This document shows, one piece after another, positions 2,209 through 20,610 of a DNA stretch of 33,852 nucleotides; the first letter of the stretch is position 1, and each line of letters begins with the position of its first letter. A program made the translations under genes and the position numbers. A model generated the notes under the pieces. That model was not told the origin of the DNA and searched no databases. It saw nothing but the letters and a program-made list of their open reading frames with translations. The DNA comes from a virus: positions 1-33,852 of the IMG/VR virus record IMGVR_UViG_3300045110_000262; one strand, written 5' to 3'.

Positions 2209-3625
2209 CGCCATTTCGGCCGTTTCGGAGGGTGCGAATATCGCACTTCGCGGCAACTCGACTCCCCGGATCGCACCCCCTCGGCCGGCCCGCTCAGCGC
2301 ACCAGGCGCTCATCGCGCAGGCGGCCGAGCTCGGCATCGAGCTCATGCCATGGCAGGCGGTCGTCGTCCGCTACACGGAGGCCGTTGCTCCGAACGGTGC
2401 GCCGCTGTATCCCGAGGTCGCGGTGGTCGTCGCGCGCCAGAACGGGAAGACCCGCCTGCTCGTGCCGCTCATCATCAGCCGCATCCGGCGCGGCCTGCGG
2501 ATCATGCACGCGGCGCAGAACCGCGAGCTGCCGCGCGAGGTCTTCGCCGAGGTCGCCGACGAGATGATGGGCCGCTACCGCTCCGAGGTCCGGGGCAAGC
2601 CGCGCTTCGCCAACGGCCAGGAGCGGATCCGCACGGTCACCGGTGGCGACTACCGCGTCGTCGCCGCGACTCGTGGTGGCGCCCGCGGTCCGTCGAACGA
2701 CACGGTCATCCTCGACGAGGCGCGCGAGGAGACCGACTGGGCGTTCATCTCGGCGGCCAAGCCGACCCTCACCGCGTCGCAGCACCCACAGTTCATCTAC
2801 CTCTCGAACGCCGGCGATTCCACGTCGGTCGTCCTCAACGCGCTGCGGGCCCGGAAGGACGACGACCCCGCGCTCGCCTACCTCGAATGGTCCGCCGCCG
2901 CGAACCGGAAGCCGGACGAGATCAAGGGTTGGCTGGAATCGAACCCCGCGATCGGGCACCTGCCGTATGTCCTCGCCACGCTCGAGCGCGAGTACCGGAC
3001 GAACCTGCTCGCCGACACGCTGCCGATCTACGAGACGGAGCACCTGTGCCGCTGGGTCACCTCGACGCAGGCGCCGCTCGTGCAGGAGTCCCTCTGGCTC
3101 GACGCCAAGGCCGACCTGGGCATCGCGCGCCGGCCGATGATGGCCGTCGGGATGGACCCATCGGGGACACGGGCCTCGGCCGTCCTCGCCTGGCGGCGCG
3201 ATGGCGACGACATCGGTGTCCGGGTCGTTGCCGACGTGACCGGCGACCCGATCCCGCTCGACGTGTTCGGTGGCGAGCTCCGCGACGTGGCGAGGCAGCT
3301 GGGCGTCCGGACGGTCGGCTTCGCGCCGTGGACCGATGCCGATCTCGCCCGCTACTTCCCCAACGCCAAGCCGCTCGACGGGCGGGCGTGGGCCGTCGCG
3401 TCCGAGGCATTCGCGCGGATGGTCGAGGGCGGCAAGGTCCACTGGGACGGCAGCAACGAGATCGGCGACGACCTCGCATGGACGGTCCGCAAGTCGCACG
3501 AGGGCGGAGCCTGGCACGCCGTCAAGGCCAAGGACGACCGACCGATCACGGCAGCATTGGCAGCGGTCCGGGCCGTCTGGCTGGCATCCGACCCCAAACG
3601 TCCTGGCAGCCTGAGGGTTCAATGA
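2195..3625 (+). CDS. terL: Terminase large subunit
   Basis: 476 residues. This is the packaging motor ATPase and nuclease that moves DNA into the prohead and cuts it. The deviant Walker A is ARQNGKT (Lys85), the Walker B is VILDEAREE (Asp174, catalytic Glu175), and the C-terminal RNase H-like nuclease begins at AVGMDPSG (Asp321). Length and motif order fit HK97/lambdoid-type TerL. It starts with ATG inside the end of the HNH frame and its stop overlaps the portal ATG (ATGA). No separate small terminase gene is recognisable upstream, which is unusual. Confidence 0.92.
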   Translation: MTTADAISAVSEGANIALRGNSTPRIAPPRPARSAHQALIAQAAELGIELMPWQAVVVRYTEAVAPNGAPLYPEVAVVVARQNGKTRLLVPLIISRIRRGLRIMHAAQNRELPREVFAEVADEMMGRYRSEVRGKPRFANGQERIRTVTGGDYRVVAATRGGARGPSNDTVILDEAREETDWAFISAAKPTLTASQHPQFIYLSNAGDSTSVVLNALRARKDDDPALAYLEWSAAANRKPDEIKGWLESNPAIGHLPYVLATLEREYRTNLLADTLPIYETEHLCRWVTSTQAPLVQESLWLDAKADLGIARRPMMAVGMDPSGTRASAVLAWRRDGDDIGVRVVADVTGDPIPLDVFGGELRDVARQLGVRTVGFAPWTDADLARYFPNAKPLDGRAWAVASEAFARMVEGGKVHWDGSNEIGDDLAWTVRKSHEGGAWHAVKAKDDRPITAALAAVRAVWLASDPKRPGSLRVQ

Positions 3626-5004
3626 CCATGAGCATCTGGGACCGCGTCACCAGTTTCCTCGCGCTCGAGCCGATGCAGGAGCGCACCGAGCTCGGGAGCT
3701 TCCCCGACATCGACACGCAGGTCGCCCGGATCCGCGAGCGGCAGGTGCGCCCCGGCCGGCACGCCAGCGTCGCGGAGGCGCTGTCGGTCCCGGCCATCCA
3801 GCGCTGTGTGACGCTCATCAGCCATACCCTCGGCAGCCTCTCGATGCAGGGCTGGTACAACGGCTCGCCGATGCCGCAGACGCCGGTCGTCCTCGCCCGC
3901 CCGAACCCGTACGAGACGCCGTACGCCCACTACTACGAGGTCGGCTACTACCGTGCCACGCGCGGCGAGAACATCATGTGGATCGCCAACCGCGACAGCG
4001 CCGGCTTCCCGATCGCGCTCGTCAACGTGCCGCCGTGGGAGATGTCGGTCCAGGCCAACCCCGCCAACCGCCTGCGCCCGACGTACTACTGGGGTAATCC
4101 AGAGCGGCCGCGCGACGGCGACATCACCGGCACGCGCTACTCGCCGGCCAACCCCGAGGGCTCCTTCGTCCACATCATGTACCACAAGGACCAGACCGGG
4201 CTGCGCGGCATCGGGCCGCTCCAGATGTGCGGCGCGGCCGTCTCGGTGGCGGTCGAGGCGCAGCAATGGGCGACCAACTTCTACCACGGCGGGGGCGTCC
4301 CGCCCCTGGTCGTCAAGAAGGCCGACGAGCTCGACACGACGACCGGGCCCGATGGGCTGACCGAGGCCGAGGTCTTCAAACGCGACTGGATGTCGGGCCA
4401 TCCCAACGAACCCAAGATCATCGACATCGGGATCGAGTCGGTCGAGCAGTTCGATGCCAATCCCCAGGGCGCCCAGATGCTCGACGCGCGCCAGTACGAG
4501 AACGGCGACGCGGCGCGGATGTTCGGCATCCCGGGCGTCCTCCTCGAGTACAACATGACCGGCTCGTCGCTGACCTACCAGAGCATCCCCGACGTGTGGA
4601 TCGAGTTCCTGCGCGGCTGCCTCCAGCCCTCGTACCTCGAGCCGATCGAGGCGCAGATGTCCGACCTCCTGCCCCGGACGCAGGTCGGCCGGTTCAATAC
4701 CAACGTCCTGCAGCGGGCCGACATCAAGACCCGGTTCGAGACGTACAACCTCGGCGTGCCGCTCGGGATCATCAGCGTCGAGCAGGCGCAGCAGGCCGAG
4801 GGCTACCTCCCAGGCGACATCGAGATGATGCCGGTCCCGCCCTCGCCGCCGGCGGCCGTGGTGGGGCTGTCGAAGGCCGTCCGCTGCACGGGTCAGCTGA
4901 TGATCCGCGGCGTTGTCCGGCGCTGCAACCTGAAGCTCGCCGAGTCTGGCACCTTCGAGGGCCGCTGCCGGCGCTGCGGCGCGCAATATCCATCGGTCGC
5001 ATGA
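3622..5004 (+). CDS. HK97-type portal protein with C-terminal zinc ribbon
   Basis: 460 residues, forming the dodecameric vertex through which DNA enters the head. Typical HK97-portal features include ALSVPAIQRCVTLISHTLGS near residue 55, the FYHGGGVPP segment, an ARQYENGDAARMFGIPGVLL helix-loop and YNLGVPLGIISVEQAQQAEG near the end. Residues 420-460 add an unusual zinc-ribbon tail, with Cys422, Cys435, Cys449 and Cys452 (RCTG...RRCN...GRCRRCGAQYP). It resembles Com-type zinc fingers of Mu-like phages with a longer first knuckle. It overlaps TerL and the following glycan gene by four bases each. Confidence 0.9.
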   Translation: MTMSIWDRVTSFLALEPMQERTELGSFPDIDTQVARIRERQVRPGRHASVAEALSVPAIQRCVTLISHTLGSLSMQGWYNGSPMPQTPVVLARPNPYETPYAHYYEVGYYRATRGENIMWIANRDSAGFPIALVNVPPWEMSVQANPANRLRPTYYWGNPERPRDGDITGTRYSPANPEGSFVHIMYHKDQTGLRGIGPLQMCGAAVSVAVEAQQWATNFYHGGGVPPLVVKKADELDTTTGPDGLTEAEVFKRDWMSGHPNEPKIIDIGIESVEQFDANPQGAQMLDARQYENGDAARMFGIPGVLLEYNMTGSSLTYQSIPDVWIEFLRGCLQPSYLEPIEAQMSDLLPRTQVGRFNTNVLQRADIKTRFETYNLGVPLGIISVEQAQQAEGYLPGDIEMMPVPPSPPAAVVGLSKAVRCTGQLMIRGVVRRCNLKLAESGTFEGRCRRCGAQYPSVA

Positions 5005-5972
5005 TCGACGCGCTCGGTAGCGAGCCGCACTTCGTCGATCACGTCTTGCCGATCTGGCGGGCGCTGCCCGATGAGGTCCGGGGCATCTTCTATCTCCGCA
5101 CGCCGCGCGACGGCGTGGTGAACCAGGCAGTCGGTCGGGTGCCGCCCGGCGGCAGACCGATCCTTGTGGCCTCGATCGGGGACTTCAAGCGGGTGTCGGG
5201 GCGACCGGTGGCGTTGATGGAGCACGGCTGCGGCCAGTCGTTCGGCGGTGGCGAGGGCCGGATGGCCAACAGCTCGTCGTATGCCGGCGGTGCCGGCCGC
5301 GGTGCGAACCTCTTCCTCCATCCCGGCCCGCACCCCGCCGCGAGAGATCGCGCCCGCTATCCCGAGACGCGCATCGAGATCGTGGGCTGCGCGAAGCTCG
5401 ACTGCCTTCCCCGACGCGACGGCGACGGCCCCCCAGTCGTCGCCGTCGCGTTCCACTGGGATTGCCGCGTCGGGCCTGAGACGCGCTCGGCCTGGCGGGC
5501 GTTCGACCGGGCCGTCGTGCGGCTGTCGAAGTCGGGACTCGAGGTGATCGGACACGGGCACCCGCGGATCTTCCGGCGCCTCGCCGCCTGGTACGAGCGG
5601 CACGGCATCGAGCCCGTCCGTTCGTTCGAAGAGGTCTGCCGGCGCGCCGACGTCTACGTCAACGACGCCAGCTCGACCCTGTTCGAGTTCGCCTCCACCG
5701 GTCGGCCGGTCGTGGTCATGAACCCACGAATCTACCGGCGCAGCGTGGCTCACGGGCTCCGGTTCTGGGAGGCGTCCACGGTGGGCGTCAACGTCGAGGA
5801 GGGCGAGGATCTGACGGCGGCCGTTCAGCAGGCGCTCGAGGATCCGGCCGACCAGCAGGCCGAGCGGGAGCGGTGCGTCGACCTCGTGTATGCCTACCGC
5901 TCAGGCGCAGCGGAACGGGCAGCCGACGTCCTCGTGGATTGGGCGAGCGATCGCGCGACCGCCGCGGCGTGA
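5001..5972 (+). CDS. CDP-glycerol glycerophosphotransferase-like GT-B enzyme
   Basis: 323 residues. The C-terminal half resembles the nucleotide-binding lobe of the TagB/TagF family, which transfers glycerol-phosphate or related groups onto glycans. It has a VAVAFHWDCRV strand, VIGHGHPRIFRRLAAWYE, then VYVNDASSTLFEFASTGRPV (Asn221-Ser225), equivalent to the D-x-SS-hFhDF motif of that family, and VVMNPRIYRR. The N-terminal lobe is less clear (VASIGDFKRVSGRPVALMEHGCGQSF). It is the first of three overlapping glycan-active genes inserted between portal and capsid. The substrate cannot be told from sequence. A role on the virion or on host surface glycan is inference. Confidence 0.55.
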   Translation: MIDALGSEPHFVDHVLPIWRALPDEVRGIFYLRTPRDGVVNQAVGRVPPGGRPILVASIGDFKRVSGRPVALMEHGCGQSFGGGEGRMANSSSYAGGAGRGANLFLHPGPHPAARDRARYPETRIEIVGCAKLDCLPRRDGDGPPVVAVAFHWDCRVGPETRSAWRAFDRAVVRLSKSGLEVIGHGHPRIFRRLAAWYERHGIEPVRSFEEVCRRADVYVNDASSTLFEFASTGRPVVVMNPRIYRRSVAHGLRFWEASTVGVNVEEGEDLTAAVQQALEDPADQQAERERCVDLVYAYRSGAAERAADVLVDWASDRATAAA

Positions 5973-6688
5973 ACCATTACCTCCTGACGCGCTCGGCCTA
6001 CAGCCAGGCGGTGCCCATCCAGCGCAACCGTGCGCGCCTCCGGCTCACGATCGGCGTCTGTGCGCGGTCGCTCGCGGCGCAGACGAACCGCGACGTGACC
6101 TGGCTCGTGCTCGTGGACCTCGAGGACCCGCTCCTGCCGCAGCGGACCGCGGCGTTCATCTCGTCGGGCCTCGAGGTAATCATCGCGCCGGCTGGCGACA
6201 TCGTCCGCGACGACGTGCACGACCTGCCGTGGGGCCCTTGGAAGCAGTACATCGACTGGACCGATGCCACCCTGACCACGCGCATCGACGACGACGACGC
6301 CTTCGCGCCGTGGGTTCTCGCCAACTACCGCGAGAAGGCCGATGCGTGGGCCCGCCGCAATCCGAAGCGGCGCCTCGTCCTGACCCTGCCGACGGGCTAT
6401 CGCGTCGCCGACGGCAAGGTGAACCAGCGGACGGACCGGGTCTCGCAATTCTCGTCGCTCTACGCACCCAAGGGCGACCACGGGACCGTGATGGACATGA
6501 ACCACACGCGGGTACGACGGCTCGCGCGGCCGATGACGGCCTCGACGGATCCGGGCTGGCTGTGGGTGCGCCACGACCAGACGCGCAGCGCGCGCAGCCG
6601 CGCCTCGACGATCGAGCGAGACAAGATGGTCGTCGCGTCGCAGGCTGTCCGCGACCTGTTCCCGGTCGACTGGTCGCTGCTCGGGTGA
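5969..6688 (+). CDS. GT-A-like glycosyltransferase (putative rhamnosyltransferase family)
   Basis: 239 residues from a GTG overlapping the previous stop. The N-terminal half has VTWLVLVDLEDPLLPQRTAA followed by an acidic metal-binding motif, TRIDDDDAFAPW (Asp107-Asp110), which is the DxD-type site of GT-A glycosyltransferases. The arrangement (long spacer, R-h-DDDDA-hxxW-h) is like the putative rhamnosyltransferase family of bacterial and phage origin. A later segment, FSSLYAPKGDHGTVMDMNHT, may shape the acceptor site. Spacing shows it is co-translated with its neighbours. Donor sugar and acceptor are unknown. Confidence 0.6.
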   Translation: MNHYLLTRSAYSQAVPIQRNRARLRLTIGVCARSLAAQTNRDVTWLVLVDLEDPLLPQRTAAFISSGLEVIIAPAGDIVRDDVHDLPWGPWKQYIDWTDATLTTRIDDDDAFAPWVLANYREKADAWARRNPKRRLVLTLPTGYRVADGKVNQRTDRVSQFSSLYAPKGDHGTVMDMNHTRVRRLARPMTASTDPGWLWVRHDQTRSARSRASTIERDKMVVASQAVRDLFPVDWSLLG

Positions 6689-7269
6689 CGCTCCAGGTCG
6701 TCGGCAAGGGGCCGTCGCTGTTGCGGCTGACCCGCGCCGACTTCGGCCCGGGCCCGGTCCTGACCCTCAACCACGCCATCACGGCCGTGCGACTGCTCGG
6801 CCTGCCGAACGAGATCTTCACGATGCAGAAGGACGGCTGCGTCGTGCACGACGTCACCAGCACCGTTCCACTCGGCTGCGTCTGCCCGAGCCCGCGGATG
6901 GTGCCGCCGCTGCCTGGTGAGACCCTCATCCTGTCGGCGGCCGAGTCGTCGCGCTGCTTTCCGGATCACCGACCGAGGGTCGTCGTCGACGTCGAGGCGC
7001 TCGGTTGCCGGTGGAACACGATGTCGGTCGAGGTCGCGGTGCGGCTTGCGAAGGCGATGGGCCACGACTCTCTGCGGATGCTGGCGTTCGACGCCTACAC
7101 GAGCCGCGACCACCGGCGGGTCGATGGCGACCGCCTGGTCAGGGTCGGCGGCAACGCCTACACCCAGGGCGATAGGCGGGCCGATCGCTGGGCACGGGCC
7201 AACGGGCTGCGCATCCAATGGCTTGACGTCAGGCGCTCGTCTCGCGTACGGTCTCGCCTAACGACATAA
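6685..7269 (+). CDS. Sialyltransferase/DUF115-like Rossmann protein
   Basis: 194 residues from a GTG overlapping the previous stop. It opens with LQVVGKGPSLLRLTRADF and VLTLNHAITAVRLLGLPNEI, then FTMQKDGC. A G-x-GPSL loop followed by a strand ending in N, and a later D in a hydrophobic strand, is how GT29 sialyltransferase-like and DUF115-type proteins look. These act on glycans or nucleotide-activated groups. C-terminal residues ~125-170 contain NTMSVEVAVRLAKAMGHDSL and MLAFDAYT, a second Rossmann-like segment. It is the third gene of the glycan cluster, and the candidate capsid promoter lies inside its 3' end. The family call is tentative. Confidence 0.45.
   Translation: MTLQVVGKGPSLLRLTRADFGPGPVLTLNHAITAVRLLGLPNEIFTMQKDGCVVHDVTSTVPLGCVCPSPRMVPPLPGETLILSAAESSRCFPDHRPRVVVDVEALGCRWNTMSVEVAVRLAKAMGHDSLRMLAFDAYTSRDHRRVDGDRLVRVGGNAYTQGDRRADRWARANGLRIQWLDVRRSSRVRSRLTT
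7223..7252 (+). promoter_or_regulatory. Candidate promoter of capsid module
   Basis: TTGACG at 7223-7228 and TACGGT at 7247-7252 are separated by 18 bases, a fair sigma-70-type promoter for a GC-rich genome (5/6 and 3/6 matches). Transcription would start near 7259, at the stop of the preceding gene, giving a leader of about 97 bases before the capsid ATG. This is prediction from pattern only. Confidence 0.4.
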
Positions 7270-7356: not shown

Positions 7357-9363
7357 ATGGCAGACAGCGTCGATACCGGCGCATGGGACGGCGGGCAGGC
7401 GATGTCCGATGCCGCGCAGTCCGATGACCCCGCCGCGGCCTATGCCGCCATCTGTGCCGGCCGTCGTGACGGCGACCCGGCCTTGCAGGCCACGTGGGCG
7501 CTGCCACACCACTCGCACCCCGGTGATCCGCCCAACGTCGACGGCGTCCATGCCGCGCTGTCGCGGATCAACCAGGCACAGGGCTTGACCAACCGCGACG
7601 CCGCGCAGGCGCACCTCGACAGCCACATGACCGCGATCCGGGCGGCGGAGGAAGACGGAGGGATGATGTCGAACACCGAACCAGAGGTCGAGCTCGGCGA
7701 GCACCGGACGCTCGACCTCGAGGCCGACTTCACGACGCTGTCGGTCAGCGAGCGTCGGCTGGGATTGAAGCTCCTCACCTACAACGCCATCGTCGACTCG
7801 CGCTACGGGCCGATCATGTTCGAGCCCAAGGCGTTCGGTGCGGTCGACCCGAAGTCGGTCCGGCTCCGGATGGACCACGCTGACCCGCCGACGGGGCTCG
7901 GGCAGTCGTTCACCGACAGGGCCGACGCGCCGTACATGGACTTCAAGGTTAGCAAGACGCAGCGCGGCGACGAGCAGCTCACGCTCGCCAACGACGGCGT
8001 CTCGCGCGGCGTGTCGGTCGGCTTCGACGACGTCGGCAGTGGTCCCAGCGCGAAGCTAGTCGACGGGCGCAGGGTGCTCGTCTACGGCCCGAACTCGGCC
8101 CGGTTGGCCGAGGTCTCCACCACATGGCAGCCGACGTTCCCCGTGCCCCAGGCCGGCGTCGTCTACGTCCTCTCGAATGCCCCGGAAGGGGAGAAAGGAA
8201 CAGGCCCGATGGCCGAGAACGAGCAGGAGGCTCCGGTCGTCGGGGCCGGGATCGACTACGACCGGCTGACCGGCGCGATCGTCGCGGCGAGCCAAGACAA
8301 CGAGCGCGACGGGAAGATCGACAAGATGCTCGGCGCGTTCGAGCAGATGATCGAGCTCCAGCGCGCGAACTTCGCCGTCCCGCAGGCGGGCCCGACCAAG
8401 AAGCCGAAGCTCTCCAACTGGGTCGAGTTCACGCTCCGCCGGATGCGTGGCGAGAACATGTCGAGCGGCGACCTCAAGCGCCTGGCGCTCGACGACGTGG
8501 TCATCAGCGAGCAGCCGGGCCTCGTGCCCGACGTGTTCACGGCCGACTACGACGACCTCATCAACGAGGATCGGCCGTTCCTCAACTCGACCCGCCGCAT
8601 CTCGGCGCCGGTGTCGGGCGACACGTTGACCCTGCCGGTCATCACGACCCGCGCGGTCGCTGGCACGCAGGCGGGCGGCGAGAAGACGGCCGTCACGACC
8701 ACGGCCACCAAGGTCGGGACCGGGACGTTCGCGTACCAGTCCGTGTTCGGCGGCGCCGACCTTTCGATCCAGTTCATCAACCGCGCGCAGCCGGGCTTCT
8801 TCGAGATCCTGACCGGCGACATGGCGATGGCCTACGCGCTCGACGCGGAGGAGAAGGCGATCGCCGCGCTGATCGCGGGCTACACCGATTCGGCCGGCAA
8901 CTCGCACGTCCCGGTCGACGGTGGCGCGCTCGATCCCGAGAACCCCAACTTCGGGGACGCGTGGATCACCTCGATCACATCGGGCTACAAGCGAGCCCCG
9001 ACCAACATCTGGATGTCGGCTGCCGCGGTCGGCGCGTTCATCGACGCCAAGGCGCCGTTGACCAACGCGCCGCTGTACTCGAACCTCGCCGCGTCGTTCC
9101 TGGCCTCCGGCGGCCCTGGTGGCACGCTGTCGGGTCTGCGCCCGGTCTACGTGCCGGCGCTCGACGTCCTGTCGGTCTCGGGTGAGATGGTCGACGTCAT
9201 CGTCGGCCCGTCGCGCGGCTTCGTGTGGGCCGAGGATCCGGCGCTCACGCTGCAGGCCGACGTGCCGTCGGTGGCCGGTCGTGACATCGCCCTCGCGGGC
9301 GGCATCTTCCCGGCGCCCCGCTACGCGGACGCCTTCACCACGTACACCATCGCGGGCAGCTGA
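7357..9363 (+). CDS. Prohead protease-major capsid protein fusion
   Basis: 668 residues in three parts. Residues ~35-95 form a helical module with WALPHHSHPGDPPNVDGVHA and GLTNRDAAQAHLDSHM, known as an N-terminal extension of some phage proteases. Residues ~105-270 are an HK97-type serine protease (S78/U35), with catalytic His174 in RMDHADPP and Ser220 in GVSVGFDD. Residues ~285-350 are helical and scaffold/delta-like, and ~355-668 form the HK97-fold major capsid protein (PGLVPDVFTADYDDLINEDR, DALDAEEKAIAAL region, AGGIFPAPRYADAFT). Normally protease and capsid are separate genes. In-frame starts with good ribosome-binding sites occur at 7663/7666 and 8209, so separate products may also be made. 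Confidence 0.88.
   Translation: MADSVDTGAWDGGQAMSDAAQSDDPAAAYAAICAGRRDGDPALQATWALPHHSHPGDPPNVDGVHAALSRINQAQGLTNRDAAQAHLDSHMTAIRAAEEDGGMMSNTEPEVELGEHRTLDLEADFTTLSVSERRLGLKLLTYNAIVDSRYGPIMFEPKAFGAVDPKSVRLRMDHADPPTGLGQSFTDRADAPYMDFKVSKTQRGDEQLTLANDGVSRGVSVGFDDVGSGPSAKLVDGRRVLVYGPNSARLAEVSTTWQPTFPVPQAGVVYVLSNAPEGEKGTGPMAENEQEAPVVGAGIDYDRLTGAIVAASQDNERDGKIDKMLGAFEQMIELQRANFAVPQAGPTKKPKLSNWVEFTLRRMRGENMSSGDLKRLALDDVVISEQPGLVPDVFTADYDDLINEDRPFLNSTRRISAPVSGDTLTLPVITTRAVAGTQAGGEKTAVTTTATKVGTGTFAYQSVFGGADLSIQFINRAQPGFFEILTGDMAMAYALDAEEKAIAALIAGYTDSAGNSHVPVDGGALDPENPNFGDAWITSITSGYKRAPTNIWMSAAAVGAFIDAKAPLTNAPLYSNLAASFLASGGPGGTLSGLRPVYVPALDVLSVSGEMVDVIVGPSRGFVWAEDPALTLQADVPSVAGRDIALAGGIFPAPRYADAFTTYTIAGS
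7647..7668 (+). promoter_or_regulatory. Internal in-frame ribosome-binding site and start at protease boundary
   Basis: A purine-rich run, GGAGGAAGACGGAGGG (7647-7662), is directly followed by ATGATG at 7663 and 7666, both in the frame of the fusion gene. The start falls exactly where the helical N-terminal module ends and the protease begins (MMSNTEPEVELGEH). It would give a product lacking the first ~102 residues. Spacing from the second GGAG to ATG 7666 is short but workable. Confidence 0.4.
8190..8211 (+). promoter_or_regulatory. Internal in-frame ribosome-binding site and start for capsid-only product
   Basis: GGGAGAAAGGA (8189-8199) lies about nine bases before ATG 8209, which is in frame with the fusion and begins MAENEQEAPVVGAGIDYDRL. 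The site is at the protease/capsid border and would yield a 384-residue scaffold-plus-capsid protein, the usual size for an HK97-type capsid precursor. This is one of the best ribosome-binding sites in the window. Confidence 0.5.
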
Positions 9364-12493: not shown

Positions 12494-14999
12494 GGTTGCC
12501 GAGACGGCGAAGATGGTCGCCGAGCTCGACCTCAAGACGCAGAAGTTCACAAAGGGCGTCAGCACCGCGGTCGGGTCGCTCGGGAAGCTGACGGGCTCGG
12601 TCGCTCGGTCGCGCGCCGTGGCGGTGTCACTGGGCGTCGGGCTCGAGCACGCCGCCGAGTTCGGGCTACGGGCGCTCGGTGGCGCGGTCACCGGTGGCCT
12701 CCAGAGCCTCGCAGACCTGGAGAGTGCGACGACCTCGGTCGATGGTGCCATCAAGCAGATGGGCCTGACTGGCCAGGTCACGGCGGACCAGATCGCAGGC
12801 TGGGCCAACGAGGTCGAGGCCAACGTCCAGGCGGCCTTCGACGACAAGGACATCACCCGCGCAACGGCGACGCTCATCCGGTTCGGCCACATCACTCCTA
12901 GTGCCATCCGGCCGGCGATGCAGGTCATCACGGACCTCGCGGTCAAGACCGGCGATGTCGATAGCGCCGCGAACCTGCTCGGGAGGGCGCTGGCGGATCC
13001 GGCCAAGGCGGCGGGCAAGCTTTCGCGGGCGGGCGTCATCCTGACCAAGACCCAGCAGGACCAGATCAAGGCGTTCGTCAAGGCGGGCAAGGTCGGCAAG
13101 GCGCAGGCGCTCATCCTCGATGCGGTCGCGACATCGACGAAGGGTGCGGCGGCGGCGTCGCAAGGGCCTTACCAGGACTCCATCAACACGCTGCGCGACG
13201 TGACGGAGGACGCCCAGAAGGCGCTGGCGACCGGCTTCCTGCCGGTCATCATGCGCGTCCGCGACATCCTGTCGAAGGAACTCGCCAAGCCCGAGGTCCT
13301 TGCCAACATCAGGCGGTTCGGCGAGGGTCTGGCGGGCGGCCTGTCGAAGCTCGTCGACGTCATCCAGAAGGTCAACTGGGGGAGCGTCGTCTCCCGGATC
13401 GCGGGGGTCTTCCACACGATCGAGGGCGTCATCAGCAAGATCAAGGCCGGTTGGGACAAGCTGCCCGAGCCCGTACAGAACCTCATCCTCACGGGACTCA
13501 TCGCCGATCGCACGGTCAAGTTCCTGTTCGGCTTCTCGCCCAGCGCGTCGATCGGTAGCACGATCTTCAAGGGCGCCGAGGGGCTGATCACTGGCGCGGT
13601 GTCAGCGGGTGTCGGCAAAGGCGTGGGCGCCGCTATCGCGACGGCTGGTCTCGGCAAGTTGTTCGTCCAGCCGGTGTTCGTGACCAATCCCGGGTTCGGT
13701 CTGCCGATACCGGGCGGTCCCGGTGGCCCGCCGGTCCCCGTCCCGGGCTGGAGCCCGACAGCAGGCGGAACGGGCGGGCTCATGGGTCTTCTCAAGGGCA
13801 TCCCGATCATTGGGGCGGCGCTCGCGGGCGCCGAGTTCGCGAACATCGCCGCTCCGATCATCGCCGAGAAGGTCAAAGGGATCGTGCCGGAAACCACGGG
13901 CGATATCGCTGGTGGCGCGACAAAGGCCATCGTTGGTGCGTTGACTGGCCCGTTAGGGTTCCCCAACCTCATCAGCGGCATACAGGACATCGCTGGCAAC
14001 ATCGGCCGACTTATTCCGCTCATCGATGCAAACAAGCCGCCGGCGCCTGGACTAAGCGGGCACGACCTATTCGACCCGACGACCGGCAGGGTCCCAGTCC
14101 GCTCGGGTCTGGGTGGGCACGACATCGAGGCGATCACGACGGCCATCAACCGTGTGGCCGACGTTCAGCAGACGAAGCTCGCCACGATCGCGACCGGCAT
14201 CCAGACAGCGGCCGCGACCCGGGACAAGGAGACGAGCTCGGCCATCGATTCGCTCGTCGCGAAGCTCCCGACCGGCAAGCAGATGGACGACCAGACGTTC
14301 GCCCAGGCCATTGCCGACCATATTTCGGCCATCACGCCGAAGTTCGTTCCGACCGTGAAGCTCGACGCCTCGCAGATCACCGACCTCCGCGACCCAGCCA
14401 TACACACGGCTGAGGCCATCTCGAAAGCGGCAGCGCAACGCGATAGCGAGATCACGAGCGCGCTGAGGCGCCTTACGGCCGAGCGTCCTGACTTCATCAT
14501 TGACGCTGCTAACCGGCGCGATGCGGAGACGAGCGCGGCCATCGCGGGATTGGCCGGCAACTTTGCGCCGCTTGCCAAGACCAGCGACATCGCGCCGATC
14601 GCCAAGACGAGCGACATCGACGGCTTGCGCATCGCCAGCGTCACCGCCACTGACGCAACCTCCGTAGCCGTCAGCAACACCTCGGCAGCGGTGACCGCCC
14701 TCGAGCAGTCGGCGATCCCGGCGATCAACATCTCCGGCGCGCTGACGGCCATCGCCGCACGGACGGCAGGATTCGTGGCGGCCTCGGCCGCGACGATGGC
14801 TGGCTTCGGCGTGGCGCGGCAGGTGTTCGCGACCGGCATCGGCATCGAGGGGGCGATCGCGGCGAACCGGCCAATCACGAACGTCAAGGTCGAGATCAGC
14901 GCGACGAACGTGACGAAGGTCAATGTCGTCGAGGACCGCGGCGGCAGCCGGTCGGGCAGCCGTGACGGCGAGGGCGGCGGCGGACCAGGTCAATCATGA
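12483..14999 (+). CDS. Tape measure protein
   Basis: 838 residues from GTG, the longest gene of the window, right after the chaperones. The N-terminal ~300 residues are helical with ATTSVDGAIKQMGLTGQVTA, LADPAKAAGKLSRAGVILTK and GPYQDSINTLRDVTEDAQKA, segments typical of phage tape measures. Hydrophobic Gly/Ala stretches lie around residues 350-400 and 430-460, with another near 760-790. Residues ~550-720 hold repeated heptad-like helices (TRDKETSSAIDSLVAK, RDSEITSALRRL, RDAETSAAIAGL). It sets tail length; at about 1.5 angstrom per residue this suggests a tail near 125 nm (rule of thumb). It could start instead at ATG 12513. Confidence 0.85.
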   Translation: MPGRVAETAKMVAELDLKTQKFTKGVSTAVGSLGKLTGSVARSRAVAVSLGVGLEHAAEFGLRALGGAVTGGLQSLADLESATTSVDGAIKQMGLTGQVTADQIAGWANEVEANVQAAFDDKDITRATATLIRFGHITPSAIRPAMQVITDLAVKTGDVDSAANLLGRALADPAKAAGKLSRAGVILTKTQQDQIKAFVKAGKVGKAQALILDAVATSTKGAAAASQGPYQDSINTLRDVTEDAQKALATGFLPVIMRVRDILSKELAKPEVLANIRRFGEGLAGGLSKLVDVIQKVNWGSVVSRIAGVFHTIEGVISKIKAGWDKLPEPVQNLILTGLIADRTVKFLFGFSPSASIGSTIFKGAEGLITGAVSAGVGKGVGAAIATAGLGKLFVQPVFVTNPGFGLPIPGGPGGPPVPVPGWSPTAGGTGGLMGLLKGIPIIGAALAGAEFANIAAPIIAEKVKGIVPETTGDIAGGATKAIVGALTGPLGFPNLISGIQDIAGNIGRLIPLIDANKPPAPGLSGHDLFDPTTGRVPVRSGLGGHDIEAITTAINRVADVQQTKLATIATGIQTAAATRDKETSSAIDSLVAKLPTGKQMDDQTFAQAIADHISAITPKFVPTVKLDASQITDLRDPAIHTAEAISKAAAQRDSEITSALRRLTAERPDFIIDAANRRDAETSAAIAGLAGNFAPLAKTSDIAPIAKTSDIDGLRIASVTATDATSVAVSNTSAAVTALEQSAIPAINISGALTAIAARTAGFVAASAATMAGFGVARQVFATGIGIEGAIAANRPITNVKVEISATNVTKVNVVEDRGGSRSGSRDGEGGGGPGQS

Positions 15000-16789
15000 G
15001 CATCAAGTTCGAGTGGCGCCAGTTCAGCTCGGGCACCGTCTTCGACTTCAGCGACCGGGTCAACCTCTCTGGTGGGGACGTGGCGTTCACGGAGAACGCC
15101 GAGGAGCTGACGGTCGGCGCCTCGAGCCTCGTCATCGAGGACCCCGACGGCGACTTTGACATCGGCGGCCATTCGTACATCCGGGTGACCGAGACGGACG
15201 CGCCCGACGACCAGGTCATCTGGGCGGGCTTCGTCACGATCCGCCACATCAAGCGCGACACGTACCGGACGGAAGCCGCCCGGACGTGGACTGGCAACCT
15301 CGACGACGTCAACACGGTCATCGCGCGGCGGATCCTGTCAGAGACGAACGACGCCGACCGGCCGGCCGAGACGGACGTCGAGCGGATCCAATGGCTCTTC
15401 GACGAGGCGTTCCTCGGCGTGGACGACACGTACTTCAGCCATGCCAACCCGGTCGACATGGACGCAGCGAACCTGGTGGGCATGACCGTCTACGACGCCG
15501 TCAACGACTGCATGTTGCAGAGCGGGAAGAACGCCTTTCAGCAGGACATGAGCGACGGCCTCGGGGGCTTCATCAACTTCACTTTCTACGACTTCGCGAG
15601 CGGGACGGCCCTCTCGTCCGATCTCCGGATCAGCAACTACCCCGGCGACATCACCGCCGACGTCGGGGCACCGTCACCCTCTGGCGCTGACCAGGTCTGG
15701 GCAGCCTCGCAGGACACCGACATGGCGCGTGACCCGACCCGCGTGTACTGGAAGGTGCGCGGCCAGTACGACGGCGGCGTCGTCACCCGCACCCGGCTCG
15801 CGACCGCCGTCGAGTTCGCCGCGCGCGAGACTACGGCCTCCTGGCCGCTCGTCAAGACGGCCGCCAAGGCCAACGCGCGAGCCGACCGTTACCTCCTCGA
15901 CATCGCGACCGAGGAGGACGTCATCACGACGACGATCTGGGTGCATCCCGAGCACGTCAACGACGCTCGGGCGGGACGGCGCATCCAGGCGCGCTTTACG
16001 CACCTTCCGGGCTACGAGGACTGGACGTGGATGCGGATCCTCAACCGAACCGTCACGTTCCTCACGCCGCTCGTGTACCGGATCACGTACACGCTGTCGC
16101 CCGGGTCGATCGCCACGCCGGCCGGGAGTTGCACGAGCATCGTCTCGAGCATGGTCACCTATGACAGCGGCGAACTGGGGTCCATCGGTGGCAGCAACGG
16201 ACCGCCTCTGTCGGTCACGCCAACAGCTCCGGTGTCCAATCCGGCCGTATTCATAGGGGGGATCTTCGGACAGAACGGCACGACCGAGATGGCGCACACC
16301 GGCACGCCGACCGTGACCGGCTTCACGGAGCTGCTCGCTTCGCCCTCGGGTGCCACGGCTACGGTCGTCGGAGCGGGCTACAAGGCCACGACGGGCTCCT
16401 CTCCTGGTGGGCTTACGCTCAACTTCACACTCGGCGCTGGCGCGAACGGTGCCGAGGTCTATCGAGCACTCGCCATCGAGCTCCCGACTGCGGCGACCTC
16501 TCCGGTGCAGTCGGCCAATCAGATCGGCTCAGGCGGCAGCATCACCCTTGGCGCGCCGCCGACTCCTGGCAACGTCCTCGTGCTCGTGCGGTTCGTGGAA
16601 ACCAGCCCGTTTGCTGCCGTTCCGGCTGGCTACTCGCAGCTCGTAGCCGGCAGCCTCCATAGCAGCTCACCGGGCAACGCGTGGATCGATATCTGTGTCA
16701 GGTGCGTCCAGGAAGGCGACACAGCCTTGCAGGCGCTCGTGGATACGAGCTTCACGCATTACCAGTCCCTTAGTGAGTGGGCGCTGTGA
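14996..16789 (+). CDS. Minor tail protein, baseplate hub-like, with C-terminal adhesin part
   Basis: 597 residues. The N-terminal ~380 residues look like a tail hub protein, with DFSDRVNLSGGDVAFTENAE, WAGFVTIRHIKRDTYRTEAA, an LSGKNAF-like stretch and a late MRILNRTVTFLTPLVYRITY strand leading to LSPGS. From ~residue 385, composition changes to Ser/Thr/Gly/Pro-rich beta sequence (TPTVTGFTELLASPSGATAT, NVLVLVRFVETSPFAAVPAG), like a carbohydrate-facing or fibre-attachment domain. It overlaps the tape measure stop (ATGA) and the next gene (GTGA). A role at the tail tip is likely; exact homology was not established. Confidence 0.6.
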   Translation: MSIKFEWRQFSSGTVFDFSDRVNLSGGDVAFTENAEELTVGASSLVIEDPDGDFDIGGHSYIRVTETDAPDDQVIWAGFVTIRHIKRDTYRTEAARTWTGNLDDVNTVIARRILSETNDADRPAETDVERIQWLFDEAFLGVDDTYFSHANPVDMDAANLVGMTVYDAVNDCMLQSGKNAFQQDMSDGLGGFINFTFYDFASGTALSSDLRISNYPGDITADVGAPSPSGADQVWAASQDTDMARDPTRVYWKVRGQYDGGVVTRTRLATAVEFAARETTASWPLVKTAAKANARADRYLLDIATEEDVITTTIWVHPEHVNDARAGRRIQARFTHLPGYEDWTWMRILNRTVTFLTPLVYRITYTLSPGSIATPAGSCTSIVSSMVTYDSGELGSIGGSNGPPLSVTPTAPVSNPAVFIGGIFGQNGTTEMAHTGTPTVTGFTELLASPSGATATVVGAGYKATTGSSPGGLTLNFTLGAGANGAEVYRALAIELPTAATSPVQSANQIGSGGSITLGAPPTPGNVLVLVRFVETSPFAAVPAGYSQLVAGSLHSSSPGNAWIDICVRCVQEGDTALQALVDTSFTHYQSLSEWAL

Positions 16790-17112
16790 AGGTCGACAGG
16801 GTCAATAGCCCGCGCCTCCCGATACTCACCGGTCCAGGTGGACTCGGTGGGTCGGCCTCCATCCCTGCCCTTGATGACCTCACTGACGTCGATACGACCG
16901 GCGTGGCCGATGGCGACACCATTGTCTTTGACTCAGGGTCGGGGACATGGGTCCCTGGCAGCGGTGGCACGTCGACGGGTGGCATGGTGCCGTACTACAT
17001 CGCGGCCGACGACACGTTCACCGTGCCGCTCTACAAGCAAGCCCTGTTCAAGGACACGATCGAGGTCGACGGCATCCTCGTGGTGCTCGGCCGCCTGCTG
17101 GGAGTCGACTGA
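16786..17112 (+). CDS. Small tail-fibre associated protein
   Basis: 108 residues if started at the GTG that overlaps the previous stop; GTG 16777 is the alternative. It contains [20 protein letters not shown] followed by [11 protein letters not shown], a motif seen again and again in phage tail-fibre proteins as a short beta-turn module. The C-terminal half ([20 protein letters not shown], then [16 protein letters not shown]) resembles the strand-rich cap of the same kind of fibre. It probably trimerises at the tail tip next to the collagen-like fibre that follows. Confidence 0.5.
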
Positions 17113-18284
17113 TGCCATCCGGATCCGGGATCACCCTACGCACCAGCGCCGAGGCCGACATCCCGACGCCGGACACCGACCAGATCACGCTGTTCAACGA
17201 CAGCGACGCGAGCAACGCGCCGGCCTACAAGGACGACACGGGCACCGTCACGCCGCTCGCCGGTGCTGGCGGAGCCACGGGCCCTACCGGGCCAACGGGA
17301 CCGACTGGCCCCACCGGCGCGACTGGCGTTGGCGCCACGGGCCCCACTGGGCCGACGGGCCCGGCACACGCCACGGTCCAGGCGCACGGCGCGATGGGCT
17401 CGACCGAGACGTTCAACCTGGGCACCGCCGACTGGCACACCGCTACCTTCGACGCCAACTGCGTCTTCACGTTTTCCGGCTTCACCAACGGTGTGCTCGG
17501 CGTCATGGGCCTCCAGCTGACCGGCGACGGCTCGCACAGCCCGACCTGGCCGGCCGCGGTCGTGTGGCCGGGGGGCAGCGCGCCGCCGGCTCCGCTCGGG
17601 AACGCCGTCGTCGCCGAATATACGTTCGACTCGATCGACGGCGGGACGACGATCCTCGGGCATTACGACCAGTCGGGTCCGACCGGTCCAACGGGTCCCA
17701 CTGGCCCCACGGGCTCGGGTGGCGCGGTAGGCGCCACCGGTCCGACGGGTCCTGCGGGCGCCACTGGCGCTACCGGTCCGACGGGCCCGACAGGGCCGAC
17801 CGGGCCGACCGGAGTAGGCGCAACCGGGGCGACCGGGCCGACGGGCGCCACGGGGACGAGTGGGCCGGGAAAGGTCCTCGGCTACAAGTCGAACACGGCT
17901 GGCGATGTCACGCGGAACGCGAACACATTGGCCGACCTCGACGCGACGAATATGGCGGTCACGTTCACCGCGCCGGCCTCGGGCAACGTACTGGTGCGGC
18001 TCGCGGCGACAGCCAGTGCTGCGGGAACGGCCAATGCCTATATGTCATGGGGCCTGCGCGAGGCGTCGTCGGACATTGCCGGGGGTGTAGGCGAGTCGAT
18101 CGCAACGCGGAGCGTCGGAGTCATCACGGATCAGTTCATGGGCGTCGTGAAGGAGTTTGTCCTCACGGGTGTCTCGGCTGGGTCCCATACCTACAAGTGG
18201 AGCGCCGCTCAGTCGAGCGGCACGGGGACGGTGAAGGCCAATGCCAGCAGTCCGGCCGTTATGACCGTCATCGAACTTCCGTGA
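17112..18284 (+). CDS. Collagen-like tail fibre protein
   Basis: 390 residues with two Gly-x-y collagen-like stalks, residues ~54-84 and ~188-253, made mainly of GPTG and GATG triplets. Between them lies a ~100-residue globular domain ([20 protein letters not shown], ending HYDQSG). A C-terminal ~130-residue beta domain, [20 protein letters not shown] ... [17 protein letters not shown], resembles phage head/tip domains that bind receptors. The collagen triplets make trimeric fibres. ATG shares one base with the previous TGA. The DNA repeats can recombine, so stalk length may vary between strains. Confidence 0.75.
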
Positions 18285-19510
18285 TCGGGCTCCGCTCGCG
18301 TTTCCGCGGGTCGTTCGTCCCCCCGCGCATCTTGGATCTGGCGACCTCGCCACAGGGCGGCTGGACGCAAAAGCCGCGATCCAGGGCGCTCCACCACGTC
18401 GGATATTCGTACGTCGCCTATGTCTCCGGCGCTGGCGATGTGGCCGTCGTTGCGATCCCCGATAGCACCCAGGTCCCCGGCAGTCCGGTCGTTCTGCACG
18501 CCGCCTTCCAGGTCGACACCCATGCGGCACCGGCGATGTACCTGCGGTCCGACAACAAGCTCCTCGTCGTGTATTGCGGCCACAACGGCGGGCTGATGTA
18601 CCAACGGATCAGCGTGAACACGCTCGACTCGGACCCGACTCTATCGGGCGGCTTCACGGTCGAGGCGACCGCGTTCAGTGGCGAGCTGCATACCTACCCG
18701 ATGCTCGTCGGCCGCTCGTCCGAGTCGACCGCCACGGTGTATTGCTTCTACCGTGACGACCAGTCAGGCACGGCGGTTCTCGCCTATCGCAAGAGCACCG
18801 ACGACGGCGCGACATGGGGCAGCCAGCACGAGGTCTACAAGAGCGCCGGCAACCGCACGTACTGGGACATCTTCGGCAACGGCACCGATCGCATCGACTT
18901 CGTCGTCACCGACTGCGCAACGACCGACCAGCTCGGCGACATCTACCACTTTTACGCCGACCTGACCGACTACCACAAGAGCGACGGCACGGTCATCTCG
19001 GGCTCGCAGCCGTGGGCACCGTCTGATCTGACGCTCGTCTATAACGATGCGACCGCGGGCCGGGCCTGGTCGCATGACGGCTTCCTTGACAGCGGCGGCA
19101 AGCCGCGGTTCATCTTCGGGATCGCGACCAACTGGAGTCCGCCCGGCGGCACGGACACCGAGTACGCCTATGCGCGCTGGTCCGGTTCGGCCTGGGTTGT
19201 CAGCACGATCCTTGCATCTGGCGGGGCTGGGCAGTTCGACCCGATGTATGGATGCTTGGACCCAGTCGAAGAGACGCGGGCGTACCTTATCCGCTATATC
19301 TCGAGCAAGTTCGAGCTCTGGCGCTACATCACCGCCGACAACGGCGCTACCTGGGCGGGCGTCGCCGTGACCTCCGCCTCGTCGGGCGCCAATCTTTACC
19401 CGGTTGCCGTCAAGGACCATCCGTCGCCTGGGCTGGCTGTGGCGTGGATCGCGGGGACCTATGTCAGCGCGACCGATTACACAATGGGCATCAAGGGCCT
19501 GATCGTGTGA
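18281..19510 (+). CDS. Asp-box beta-propeller (sialidase-like) tail protein
   Basis: 409 residues from a GTG overlapping the previous stop. Two clear Asp-boxes, STDDGATW (residues 172-179) and TADNGATW (351-358), are the hallmark of sialidase-type beta-propellers. Repeated blade-like strands such as [37 protein letters not shown] and [16 protein letters not shown] support the fold. The sialidase catalytic arginine triad cannot be assigned with confidence, so it may bind or trim host surface glycan as a tail component. Its neighbours are the fibre gene and a glycosyltransferase. Confidence 0.6.
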
Positions 19511-20610
19511 GGATCCACCTGGTCGGGCTCGTCCACACAGAGACGACCCGAGCCTTCGAGGTCTGCGCGTTTACCGCCCGGACGCGCGTGTTCGCGTCGA
19601 TGCTCACCCGGCTCGGCCACGAGGTCATCCTCTACGCCGGCCAGGCGAATGAGGCCGAGGTCGCCGAGCACGTCACGATCGTCGCACGCGACGAGCAGGC
19701 CGCCTGGTACCCCGGTTACGACCGGGCAACGACCGTGTTCAACGACTTCGATCCACTGTCGATCCCGTGGGCCACGTTCAACTCGCGCGCCGCGGTCGCC
19801 ATCCGCGAGCGGTACCAGCCGCGCGACCTGCTGGCGATGACGATGGGGACGACCCACCGCCCGATCGCCGGGCTCCTAGAGGACCTCGACATCCTGCCGG
19901 GCGAGGTCGGCATCGGCTACGTCGGTGTCTGGGCGCCCTACCGGGTCTTCGAGTCTCACGCCTGGCGATCGTTCCTCGCGGCGCGCGAGCCGACGGACGA
20001 CTTCCGGGCGTTCGATGCGGTGATCCCCCGCGCATGGGAGGCCGCGGACTTCCCGACCGGCTGGGGCTCCGGCGGTTACCACCTGTTCATGGGCCGCCTG
20101 ACCGCCCGGAAGGGCCCGCACATCGCCGCGGAGGCGTGCAAGCGGCTGGGCGTCAAGCTCGTCGTGGCCGGACAGGGCGTAGCGTCCGTGGAGCCCGGCT
20201 GCATCACGACGACCGAGGGTCTGCGGCTCGAAGGCGACGTGGAGTACGCGGGCGTCGTGGCGCCGGCGGAGCGGGCGGCCCTCATGGGCGGCGCGACAGC
20301 CGTGTGGGCGCCGACCCAATACTTCGAGCCCGGCGGCGGCGTGGCGATCGAGGCGCAGCTGGTCGGGACGCCGGTCATCGCGAGCGACTACGGGTGTTTC
20401 ACCGAGACGGTCGGTCCGGCCAGCGGGATCCGATGCTCGACGCTCGCGCAGTACGTGGCCGCCGGGCGTGCGGTCGAGGAGCTCAACCGGCCGATGATCC
20501 GGGCGCTGGCGCTCGATCGCTGGACGACCGAAGCCGTCGGGCCCCAGTGGACGGCCTACCTGGCGCGCCTCGAGACGCTATACGGCGAGGGCTGGTACGC
20601 AGCCGCCTGA
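19507..20610 (+). CDS. GT4-family glycosyltransferase
   Basis: 367 residues, GT-B fold. The C-terminal nucleotide-sugar lobe is clear: YHLFMGRLTARKGPHIAAEA, LVVAGQG, and EPGGGVAIE (Glu274-x7-Glu282), the E-x7-E motif of GT4 enzymes, followed by GTPVIASDYGCFTETV. The N-terminal acceptor lobe shows MLTRLGHEVILYAG and DRATTVFNDFDPLS. GT4 enzymes move a sugar from a nucleotide donor to an acceptor. It is the last gene of the rightward structural block and the fourth glycan-active gene there. It starts at a GTG overlapping the previous stop. Acceptor unknown. Confidence 0.82.
   Translation: MRIHLVGLVHTETTRAFEVCAFTARTRVFASMLTRLGHEVILYAGQANEAEVAEHVTIVARDEQAAWYPGYDRATTVFNDFDPLSIPWATFNSRAAVAIRERYQPRDLLAMTMGTTHRPIAGLLEDLDILPGEVGIGYVGVWAPYRVFESHAWRSFLAAREPTDDFRAFDAVIPRAWEAADFPTGWGSGGYHLFMGRLTARKGPHIAAEACKRLGVKLVVAGQGVASVEPGCITTTEGLRLEGDVEYAGVVAPAERAALMGGATAVWAPTQYFEPGGGVAIEAQLVGTPVIASDYGCFTETVGPASGIRCSTLAQYVAAGRAVEELNRPMIRALALDRWTTEAVGPQWTAYLARLETLYGEGWYAAA

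Follow-up and report, generated by a model that had tools for sequence, protein, structure and literature searches.

A candidate virion-glycosylation island between the portal and capsid genes of an uncultured phage

The window analysed here is a stretch of viral DNA of 33,852 nucleotides (IMG/VR record IMGVR_UViG_3300045110_000262, positions 1 to 33,852); the genes for which coordinates are given are all on the plus strand. The portal gene (3622..5004, with the start taken from a codon-usage gene caller) matches PF04860 with 130 bits on 3604-5004, and the major capsid protein is specified by an ORF of 668 amino acids (7357..9363) which matches phrog_2263, major head protein, with 120 bits. 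Between the two lie three complete ORFs, GT1 (5001-5972, ATG start, 323 amino acids), GT2 (5969-6688, GTG start, 239 amino acids) and GT3 (6685-7269, GTG start, 194 amino acids). An earlier sequence-only reading had described three genes at this position, joined by four-base overlaps. The ORF list and the family matches bear this out: the portal/GT1 junction is an ATGA overlap (5001-5004), the GT1/GT2 and GT2/GT3 junctions are GTGA overlaps (5969-5972 and 6685-6688), and 87 bases separate the end of GT3 from the start of the capsid ORF. Since the N-terminal part of the capsid ORF reads by eye as prohead protease-like, the label "portal-protease interval" given to the region fits. The three frames were chosen by the codon-usage caller as well, which had been seeded partly with these genes; independent support is provided by the relatives, in which the frames are kept. 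The four-base portal/GT1 overlap is present in all six relatives checked (L002, L004, L018, L019, L021 and L022). Four cysteines of the portal C-terminal tail (C421, C434, C448 and C451), invariant in 9/9 aligned portals, form a zinc-ribbon-like motif. The phage also encodes an integrase (phrog_1 match), and its TerL shows about 30% identity among the matches listed, which are mostly to actinobacteriophages.

GT1 passes the curated cut-off of PF04464 (CDP-glycerol glycerophosphotransferase; 33 bits, cut-off 22.1) with a match to the C-terminal part of the profile only (228-358 of 367), while its relative in L064 aligns with positions 136-366. The structure nearest to its AF2 model (pLDDT 76.6, pTM 0.76) is TagF [3l7j; VIA Z 17.0, 283 residues], followed by other GT-B and epimerase structures at 14.5-16.1, the best non-TagF row being 16.1. 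A profile search of PDB sequences gave weak matches only, to the TagF-like Cps3D (E 0.024) and to TarL (E 0.25). The proposal that this gene specifies a TagB/TagF-like GT-B enzyme is upheld by the Pfam match and the model; GT1 is, by its predicted fold, a TagF-type GT-B glycosyltransferase or glycerophosphotransferase-type enzyme, with catalysis and donor putative and with H75 and H185/H187 as candidate active-site residues.

GT2 belongs with the "putative rhamnosyl transferase" type, matching PF11316 (Rhamno_transf) with 52.7 bits against a cut-off of 23 (residues 21-211 on positions 37-232 of the 235-position profile). Its DDDD motif (D107-D110) is invariant in 6/6 aligned rows, and we take this to be an acidic nucleotide-sugar/metal motif. 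The description of GT2 as GT-A-like with DDDDA is thus supported as to family and motif; the GT-A fold itself is presumed. A search of PDB sequences with the GT2 profile gave no match, and single-sequence PDB searches gave nothing useful.

GT3 has no Pfam or NCBIfam family match, GT42 and GT29 included, and it has PHROG matches only at E 0.07 and above. Window GT3 does not match PF01973 (MptE-like, DUF115), to which the best of its relatives reaches 18.2 bits against a cut-off of 34.6. By VIA the AF2 model (pLDDT 83.3, pTM 0.83) resembles Maf [5mu5; Z 11.6], MptE [8sd5; 11.6], CstII [9.7] and a mammalian sialyltransferase [9.6], and it also shares its fold with thiamin pyrophosphokinases and SteA. 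Foldseek of the model gave no match in the PDB at E 0.001, and in BFVD it matched an MptE-like phage protein (E 1.2e-5). The GxGPSL and QKDG motifs are invariant in 6/6 aligned rows, with variants of the former in L104 (GRSL) and L106 (GPSI); GxGPSL is presumably common to Maf, MptE/DUF115 and the GT42/GT29 sialyltransferases. A profile search of PDB sequences returned only two designed repeat proteins, which were taken as spurious. The model agrees with the suggestion of a GPSL-type Rossmann enzyme, and the fold resembles that of Maf, MptE/DUF115 and GT42/GT29 sialyltransferases, with putative catalysis and donor. Glycan-enzyme folds had been foreseen for all three proteins; the models gave them for GT1 and GT3, and GT2 is placed by its Pfam family. 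The two models and the Pfam assignment of GT2 support three different enzyme types.

The portal-capsid interval is fully visible in eight genomes, namely the window, L004, L018, L019, L020, L021, L022 and L023. GT1 and GT2 occur in all eight and GT3 in five, so that the expected co-occurrence of the three with the head genes held for the first two enzymes and failed for the third in three genomes. Other genes of the interval include a WbuX N-acetyl-sugar amidotransferase in L020 (296 bits, cut-off 203), an NTP_transf_3 nucleotidyltransferase in L019, small methyltransferases in L018, L019, L020 and L021, and, in some intervals of the group, additional GT-like genes. GT-like genes of L023, L026, L104 and L107 have no Pfam or NCBIfam match and were named by eye. 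The amidotransferase, nucleotidyltransferase and methyltransferases act on sugars, or could. To call the interval usually invariant, as the sequence-only reading did, is too strong: its content varies within the phage group, and the cluster O mycobacteriophages fill it with four enzyme genes. The variable content would suit passenger genes, brought in by mosaic insertion and having no role in the virion, but we think this very unlikely given the constancy of GT1 and GT2 in the complete intervals and the invariance of putative active-site motifs among the relatives aligned. Furthermore, when relatives are compared, the codon position that differs most in GT1 and GT2 is the third, which is a sign of selection; in GT3 the excess is only slight. 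The cassette does not appear to be a chance insertion.

Relatives of GT1 were found in 71 dereplicated loci. Head genes were searched for in 50 of these, the loci left out being mostly short contigs. A head-gene match was obtained in 33 records, of which 31 were used and G004 and G029, whose matches were weak, omitted. Where there were several pieces the best one was taken, and G028, which has two GT1 copies, is represented by the copy with the higher score. GT1 is on the same strand as the major head gene in 31/31 records, downstream of it in 27 and upstream in four. It lies within 1.5 kb of the head gene in 14 records, while 5000 random placements gave 4.4 on average and never more than 13; this null takes the phages as unrelated and disregards contig ends. 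Widening the limit to 6.5 kb leaves a weak excess (26 records against a mean of 16.3, a count that 1 of 5000 placements reached), and five records have GT1 farther away. The GT3 profile found this gene in only 4 of the 50 GT1-bearing records, all from the window's group, and elsewhere GT3 stands in other arrangements. L064 has the order GT1-methyltransferase-GT3-adaptor, as by sequence likeness do L110, L111 and L113 (L110 and L111 are seemingly one phage). The order in L105 is portal-protease-GT-like-GT3-GT-like-capsid, its GT-like genes being named by eye and having no match in NCBIfam, the only library scanned. In L107 GT3 is downstream of a PF05065 capsid gene. GT3 recurs in the structural modules of unrelated phages.

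The enzymes had been proposed to be expressed with the head genes and to decorate either the virion or the host surface; the portal overlap and the recurrence in head modules favour the former part of this proposal, and of its two targets the virion. The host-surface version, in which the wall glycopolymer would be changed during infection or lysogeny and superinfection blocked, draws on the PF04464 name, which refers to poly(glycerophosphate) synthesis, on the integrase, and on pelagimyophage GT clusters which their authors interpret so (PMC7029224). The portal overlap and the head-gene linkage in different phages nevertheless suggest late expression, when a change of the host surface would be of little use, and we regard this version as unlikely.

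Another reading is that the enzymes glycosylate modified bases of DNA. Phage glycosyltransferases acting on DNA are known, and PMC5977210 places a CDP-glycerol glycerophosphotransferase gene within the base-modification cluster of phage SP-15. Some of the methyltransferases near GT1 may act on DNA: in neighbour tallies covering 114/131 upstream and 123/131 downstream neighbours, where one protein may count for several families, the commonest methyltransferase family among the 25 commonest families is named DNA-acting by PHROG, and one such neighbour, in L061, is Dcm-like. Against glycosylation of modified bases, neither of two marker families searched for in the window, thymidylate synthase and Tet/JBP, gave a match, and among GT1 carriers they exceed the cut-off in 1/48 and 2/48 records, respectively (Tet/JBP in 4/48 at E 0.001). 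We consider it highly improbable. Taken together, the portal overlap and head-module recurrence support virion decoration better than either host-surface or DNA modification.

We propose, with a probability of roughly 0.65, that GT1-GT3 form an island for virion glycosylation which the phage itself encodes and which is translated along with the head genes. The three enzymes would be produced together with portal and capsid. Acting on a structural protein soon after its synthesis, most likely on the major capsid protein, they would assemble a short chain of two to three sugars, with the nucleotide sugars probably coming from the host. No sugar-precursor genes were seen among the window proteins scanned, which are part of the gene set. 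The remaining interval genes (methyltransferase, nucleotidyltransferase, amidotransferase, GT-like) are exchanged among relatives, and related phages would therefore carry different glycans.

The acceptor could instead be a tail or head fibre, namely a collagen-like protein modified on the Thr of Gly-X-Thr repeats. The window has such a gene (17112..18284; PF01391, 25.4 bits, just below the cut-off of 27.2, on the longer ORF 16947-18284), with Thr at Y in 21/29 Gly-X-Y triplets (runs of at least 5). In L106 the proportion is 39/43 and the gene abuts GT3, and collagen-like stretches separate portal from GT1 in L009/L026, L048 and L003. Yet in the window some 10 kb separate this gene from the cassette and another glycosyltransferase gene lies two genes away from it, the runs in L026 and L048 are mostly of the GDK type rather than GXT, and called genes near GT1 contain collagen runs in only 3/71 loci (L026, L048 and L051; the run of L003/L020 is outside called genes and so not counted). 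A general collagen-GT1 link was dropped as a rule at this frequency, and a fibre in place of the capsid seems improbable. The fourth glycosyltransferase gene (Glycos_transf_1 type, 19507..20610; phrog_3408, 158.5 bits, and PF00534, 54.9 bits, both on 19495-20610) lies where the tail genes end. A BNR-repeat protein gene (18281..19510; PF15892, 68.6 bits) lies between it and the collagen-like gene, with a GTGA overlap at either end.

In L107 a CTP_transf_3 (cytidylyltransferase) gene is found beside GT3, which is only a hint of a CMP-nonulosonate donor. It is a tentative and rather doubtful possibility that GT3 represents a phage enzyme family, as yet without a name, which has the Maf/sialyltransferase fold and adds CMP-activated sialic-like (nonulosonic) sugars directly to Thr or Ser of virion proteins, either the capsid or collagen fibres with Gly-X-Thr repeats; GT1 and GT2 would then lengthen the glycan. 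If so, a range of uncultured phages would have interchangeable sialic-like coats, and coat chemistry would be switched via gene swaps in one head-operon slot.

Alignment profiles were needed to find GT2 and GT3 relatives in viral contigs; single-protein scans with either gave no match. Using tblastn on 50,697 deposited phage records, GT1 had one match (Rctr41k), and GT2, GT3 (threshold for the window protein, E 0.1) and three distant GT3 proteins had none. Scans of bacterial genome contigs, one with the GT1 profile and one with the portal profile, turned up no bacterial genome.

In the literature found, the only tailed phages shown to glycosylate their own virions are a few mycobacteriophages. 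That different uncultured phages fill one slot of the head operon with exchangeable glycan genes suggests that virion glycosylation is commoner. GT1 and GT3 provide genomic markers for locating it, and the cassette names proteins for experiments on the function of glycans in the phage particle.

Compared with known enzymes, GT1 shares with TagF the Pfam family and the closest GT-B structure but differs in its partial profile match, and another GT-B structure follows less than 1 Z behind. GT2 is similar to PF11316 over nearly the full profile, including the acidic motif, and differs in being phage-borne and head-linked. GT3 has the modelled fold and GxGPSL motif of Maf, MptE/DUF115 and GT42/GT29 in a protein of 194 amino acids outside their sequence families. 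As for the layout, it had been thought undescribed, but PMC4351075 already describes Corndog-group (cluster O) mycobacteriophages in which the portal and protease genes enclose one methyltransferase gene and three transferase genes. The Firecracker and Dylan records have four enzyme genes there, with mostly 4-base overlaps. Corndog gp35-38 and Firecracker gp33-36 thus correspond to the cassette in interval, direction, overlaps and the presence of several different transferases. Corndog proteins are reported glycosylated (PMC12363180, citing Freeman 2023). Firecracker and window are related in portal (21.6% identity, E 2e-14) and capsid (23%, E 7e-7), and Firecracker gp35 is homologous to a glycosyltransferase in L048, a relative of the window (27.6% over 228 amino acids, E 1e-15). 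Between Firecracker gp33-36 and GT1-GT3, blastp gave no match at E ≤ 1 and HMM comparison none below E 0.1. The Corndog precedent therefore holds by analogy, and the interval methyltransferase of cluster O has no counterpart in the window interval. The layout is therefore already known, and, as judged by sequence comparison, the enzyme set of the window differs from that of the Corndog group.

Three predicted transferase genes, all on the plus strand, occupy the space between the portal and capsid ORFs of the window, a virus record of 33,852 bases from IMG/VR: GT1 (5001-5972), GT2 (5969-6688) and GT3 (6685-7269). The portal upstream matches Pfam profile PF04860 (130 bits), the capsid ORF downstream matches phrog_2263, ATGA or GTGA overlaps link portal, GT1, GT2 and GT3 in series, and the capsid start lies 87 bases beyond the GT3 end; these ORFs, joints and matches bear out the sequence-only reading of three overlapping genes in this interval. 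The portal C-terminus (4885-4977), immediately ahead of the GT1 start, holds a four-cysteine zinc-ribbon-like stretch, invariant in its cysteines in 9/9 aligned portals, which resembles Com, a phage Mu protein that regulates translation.

Through its C-terminal part GT1 exceeds the PF04464 cut-off (33 versus 22.1 bits), and its AF2 model (pLDDT 76.6, pTM 0.76) is of the GT-B type. TagF heads the VIA comparison with this model (Z 17.0, 283 residues, 4.2 Å). TagF-like is the best label for the modelled protein, falling short of proof of the donor because further GT-B enzymes and UDP-GlcNAc 2-epimerases score close (VIA Z 14.5 to 16.1) and the top Foldseek hit is an epimerase (E 1.5e-7). All ten aligned sequences, including distant ones, share residues H75, H185 and H187 and a D-x-S-S-T-x-x-E stretch (D222 to E229) without change; such histidines are catalytic in TagF. 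Among the uncultured viral contigs matching GT1, L064 (5974-7761) and L049 (5983-7770) encode GT1 and a second transferase-like domain, scoring about at the PF03407 cut-off, as a single protein of 595-596 aa, and L057 (5022-6933) has a tandem pair of GT1 copies directly 3' of the major head gene. GT2 exceeds the PF11316 cut-off (52.7 versus 23 bits) and its DDDD is kept in 6/6 aligned rows. GT3 had no match in Pfam or NCBIfam, and PHROG matches only at E ≥ 0.07. Its AF2 model (pLDDT 83.3, pTM 0.83) aligns with a Maf flagellin transferase (Z 11.6, 161 residues, 3.6 Å), an MptE-type HPPK (Z 11.6), thiamin pyrophosphokinases (Z up to 10.6), SteA (10.4), CstII (9.7) and a mammalian sialyltransferase (9.6). 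Foldseek found nothing in the PDB at E 0.001 (best CstII, 0.022) and an MptE-like phage protein among viral models (1.2e-5). Since the predicted fold is common to nonulosonic-acid transferases and pyrophosphokinases, it cannot tell the activity of GT3.

The GT1 scan gave 12 loci and a wider profile 79, reduced to 71 by dereplication (95% nucleotide identity) and one manual join. Eight portal-capsid intervals are visible in full (the window, L004 and L018 to L023), with GT1 and GT2 in all eight and GT3 in five; the interval is a modular slot whose fixed members, judging from these eight, are GT1 and GT2. Of the three intervals lacking GT3, L018 and L019 each have a methyltransferase, joined in L019 by an NTP_transf_3 protein, and L023 has a GT-like gene of unassigned family. 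In L020 an N-acetyl-sugar amidotransferase (TIGR03573, 296 bits, cut-off 203) separates GT1 from GT2 and a methyltransferase follows GT3, while L021 has GT2, methyltransferase and GT3 in that order. The L002 contig ends just within the apparent start of GT3, and L048 carries a collagen-like gene and another GT. From portal to GT1, L020 (4227-5999) and L023 (4034-5671) have long repeat-rich proteins resembling, by eye, the C-terminal region of the product of gene 14996-16789 in the window.

Neighbours of GT1 were classified in 114/131 cases upstream and 123/131 downstream, one protein being able to count for several families. The commonest PHROG upstream is the major head protein (phrog_10, 15 members; phrog_617, 9), followed by three portal families of 8 each, probably the same proteins; galactosyltransferases number 8 and 5. 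Downstream, the most frequent families are a methyltransferase (14; under the PHROG name DNA methyltransferase), then head-tail adaptors (10 and 6) and head closure (5), and PF11316 is matched by 10 neighbours. Phrog_10 was matched in 33 of 50 GT1-bearing records, 31 of which were used for placement; GT1 is on the strand of the head gene in 31/31 and downstream of it in 27/31. It lies within 1.5 kb in 14/31, within 3.5 kb in 19/31 and within 6.5 kb in 26/31, against random means of 4.4 (maximum 13), 9.7 (maximum 18) and 16.3 (26 reached once) in 5000 placements that ignore phage kinship and contig ends. PF00535 matches 10 places in 8/31 of these records, and by eye 8/10 either separate the head gene from GT1 or directly follow GT1. 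Rctr41k, the sole deposited phage matching GT1, has the gene between the capsid/protease and head-morphogenesis genes. DNA modification as the role of the cassette is disfavoured: the base-modification markers PF00303 (thymidylate synthase) and PF12851 (Tet-JBP) have no match in the window and exceed their cut-offs in 1/48 and 2/48 records, respectively.

The best-supported reading, predicted from the genes, is that the cassette decorates the phage's own virion. Expression would be late, with translation coupled to the portal through the observed overlaps; the host would supply donor sugars, which phage enzymes of the families found in some relatives may alter; and GT1, GT2 and GT3 would transfer them to a structural protein. 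Against this reading stand the patchy presence of GT3 (5/8 intervals; 4/50 records with profile A1), neighbouring methyltransferases of which some may act on DNA, and a precedent that holds by analogy. Two points favour the capsid as candidate acceptor: the head gene recurs as a neighbour of GT1, and in mycobacteriophages the reported acceptors are capsid and tail tube (PMC12619734 and PMC12363180).

Of the 17 loci matched by a six-sequence GT3 profile, 11 were additional to those of the window's phage group and L064. The order in L105 is HK97 portal (219 bits), SppA-type protease, GT-like, GT3, GT-like, capsid (125 bits); in L107 it is capsid (PF05065), short gene, unassigned gene, cytidylyltransferase (PF02348, 58 bits; closest NCBIfam KdsB-type, far below cut-off), GT3, unassigned gene, GT4-type transferase. 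L064 has fused GT1 (PF04464 and PF03407), methyltransferase, GT3 and SU10_adaptor, and L110, L111 and L113 resemble it by sequence (L113 has its start cut; L110 and L111 score identically). GT3 is surrounded in L109 and L112 by what look by eye like neck and tail genes, stands with methyltransferase-like and further transferase-like genes in L104 and L108, and is cut by the contig end in L115. Phrog_10 matched in just 3/12 of these records (the L105 and L107 capsids, and one in L109 some 6.6 kb upstream of GT3), so proximity to a head gene is established for part of the GT3 loci only. In L106 a collagen-like gene (PF01391, 62 bits), Thr ending 39/43 of its triplets, abuts GT3. Thr of GPT repeats is glycosylated in a spore collagen-like protein, and a collagen-like acceptor is the main alternative to the favoured capsid.

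Where the tail genes of the window end (17112-20610), collagen-like, BNR-repeat and fourth glycosyltransferase genes linked by GTGA overlaps form a second glycan unit; relatives of this glycosyltransferase, about 31% identical, are mostly from Synechococcus phages. A gene at 25603-26457 has many near-repeats of an Ala/Asp/Trp/Arg motif, with long ORFs in several frames, and the ORF at 1588-2208, upstream of the terminase, looks by eye like an HNH endonuclease.

The claim that a cassette of this kind is undescribed was wrong. According to PMC4351075, Corndog-group phages carry an O-methyltransferase, two glycosyltransferases and a putative N-acetylglucosaminyltransferase from portal to protease, for which capsid modification is suggested. 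The records of the cluster O mycobacteriophages Firecracker and Dylan display this layout, and Firecracker has GTGA at 3/3 joints checked and an 8-base overlap at the fourth. Che8, Corndog and Myrna are reported to have glycosylated proteins in PMC12363180, which, citing Freeman 2023, states that capsid glycosylation requires Che8 gp110 and Corndog gp38; in Maravista, a relative of Che8, the transferase genes are found close to the 3' end (PMC11256854). Among papers listed by searches of the open literature (judged by titles and abstract starts, subscription journals being mostly outside) we recognised none on a TagF-like or Maf-like head-linked phage transferase. Firecracker gp33-36 gave no sequence match to GT1-GT3, but gp35 matches a GT (27.6% over 228 aa, E 1e-15) in L048, which TerL and portal place in the phage group of the window. 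The Corndog-group precedent is thus best called analogous: the portal-protease transferase cassette is known already, and the window, with enzymes unmatched by Firecracker gp33-36, appears to be a variant of it.
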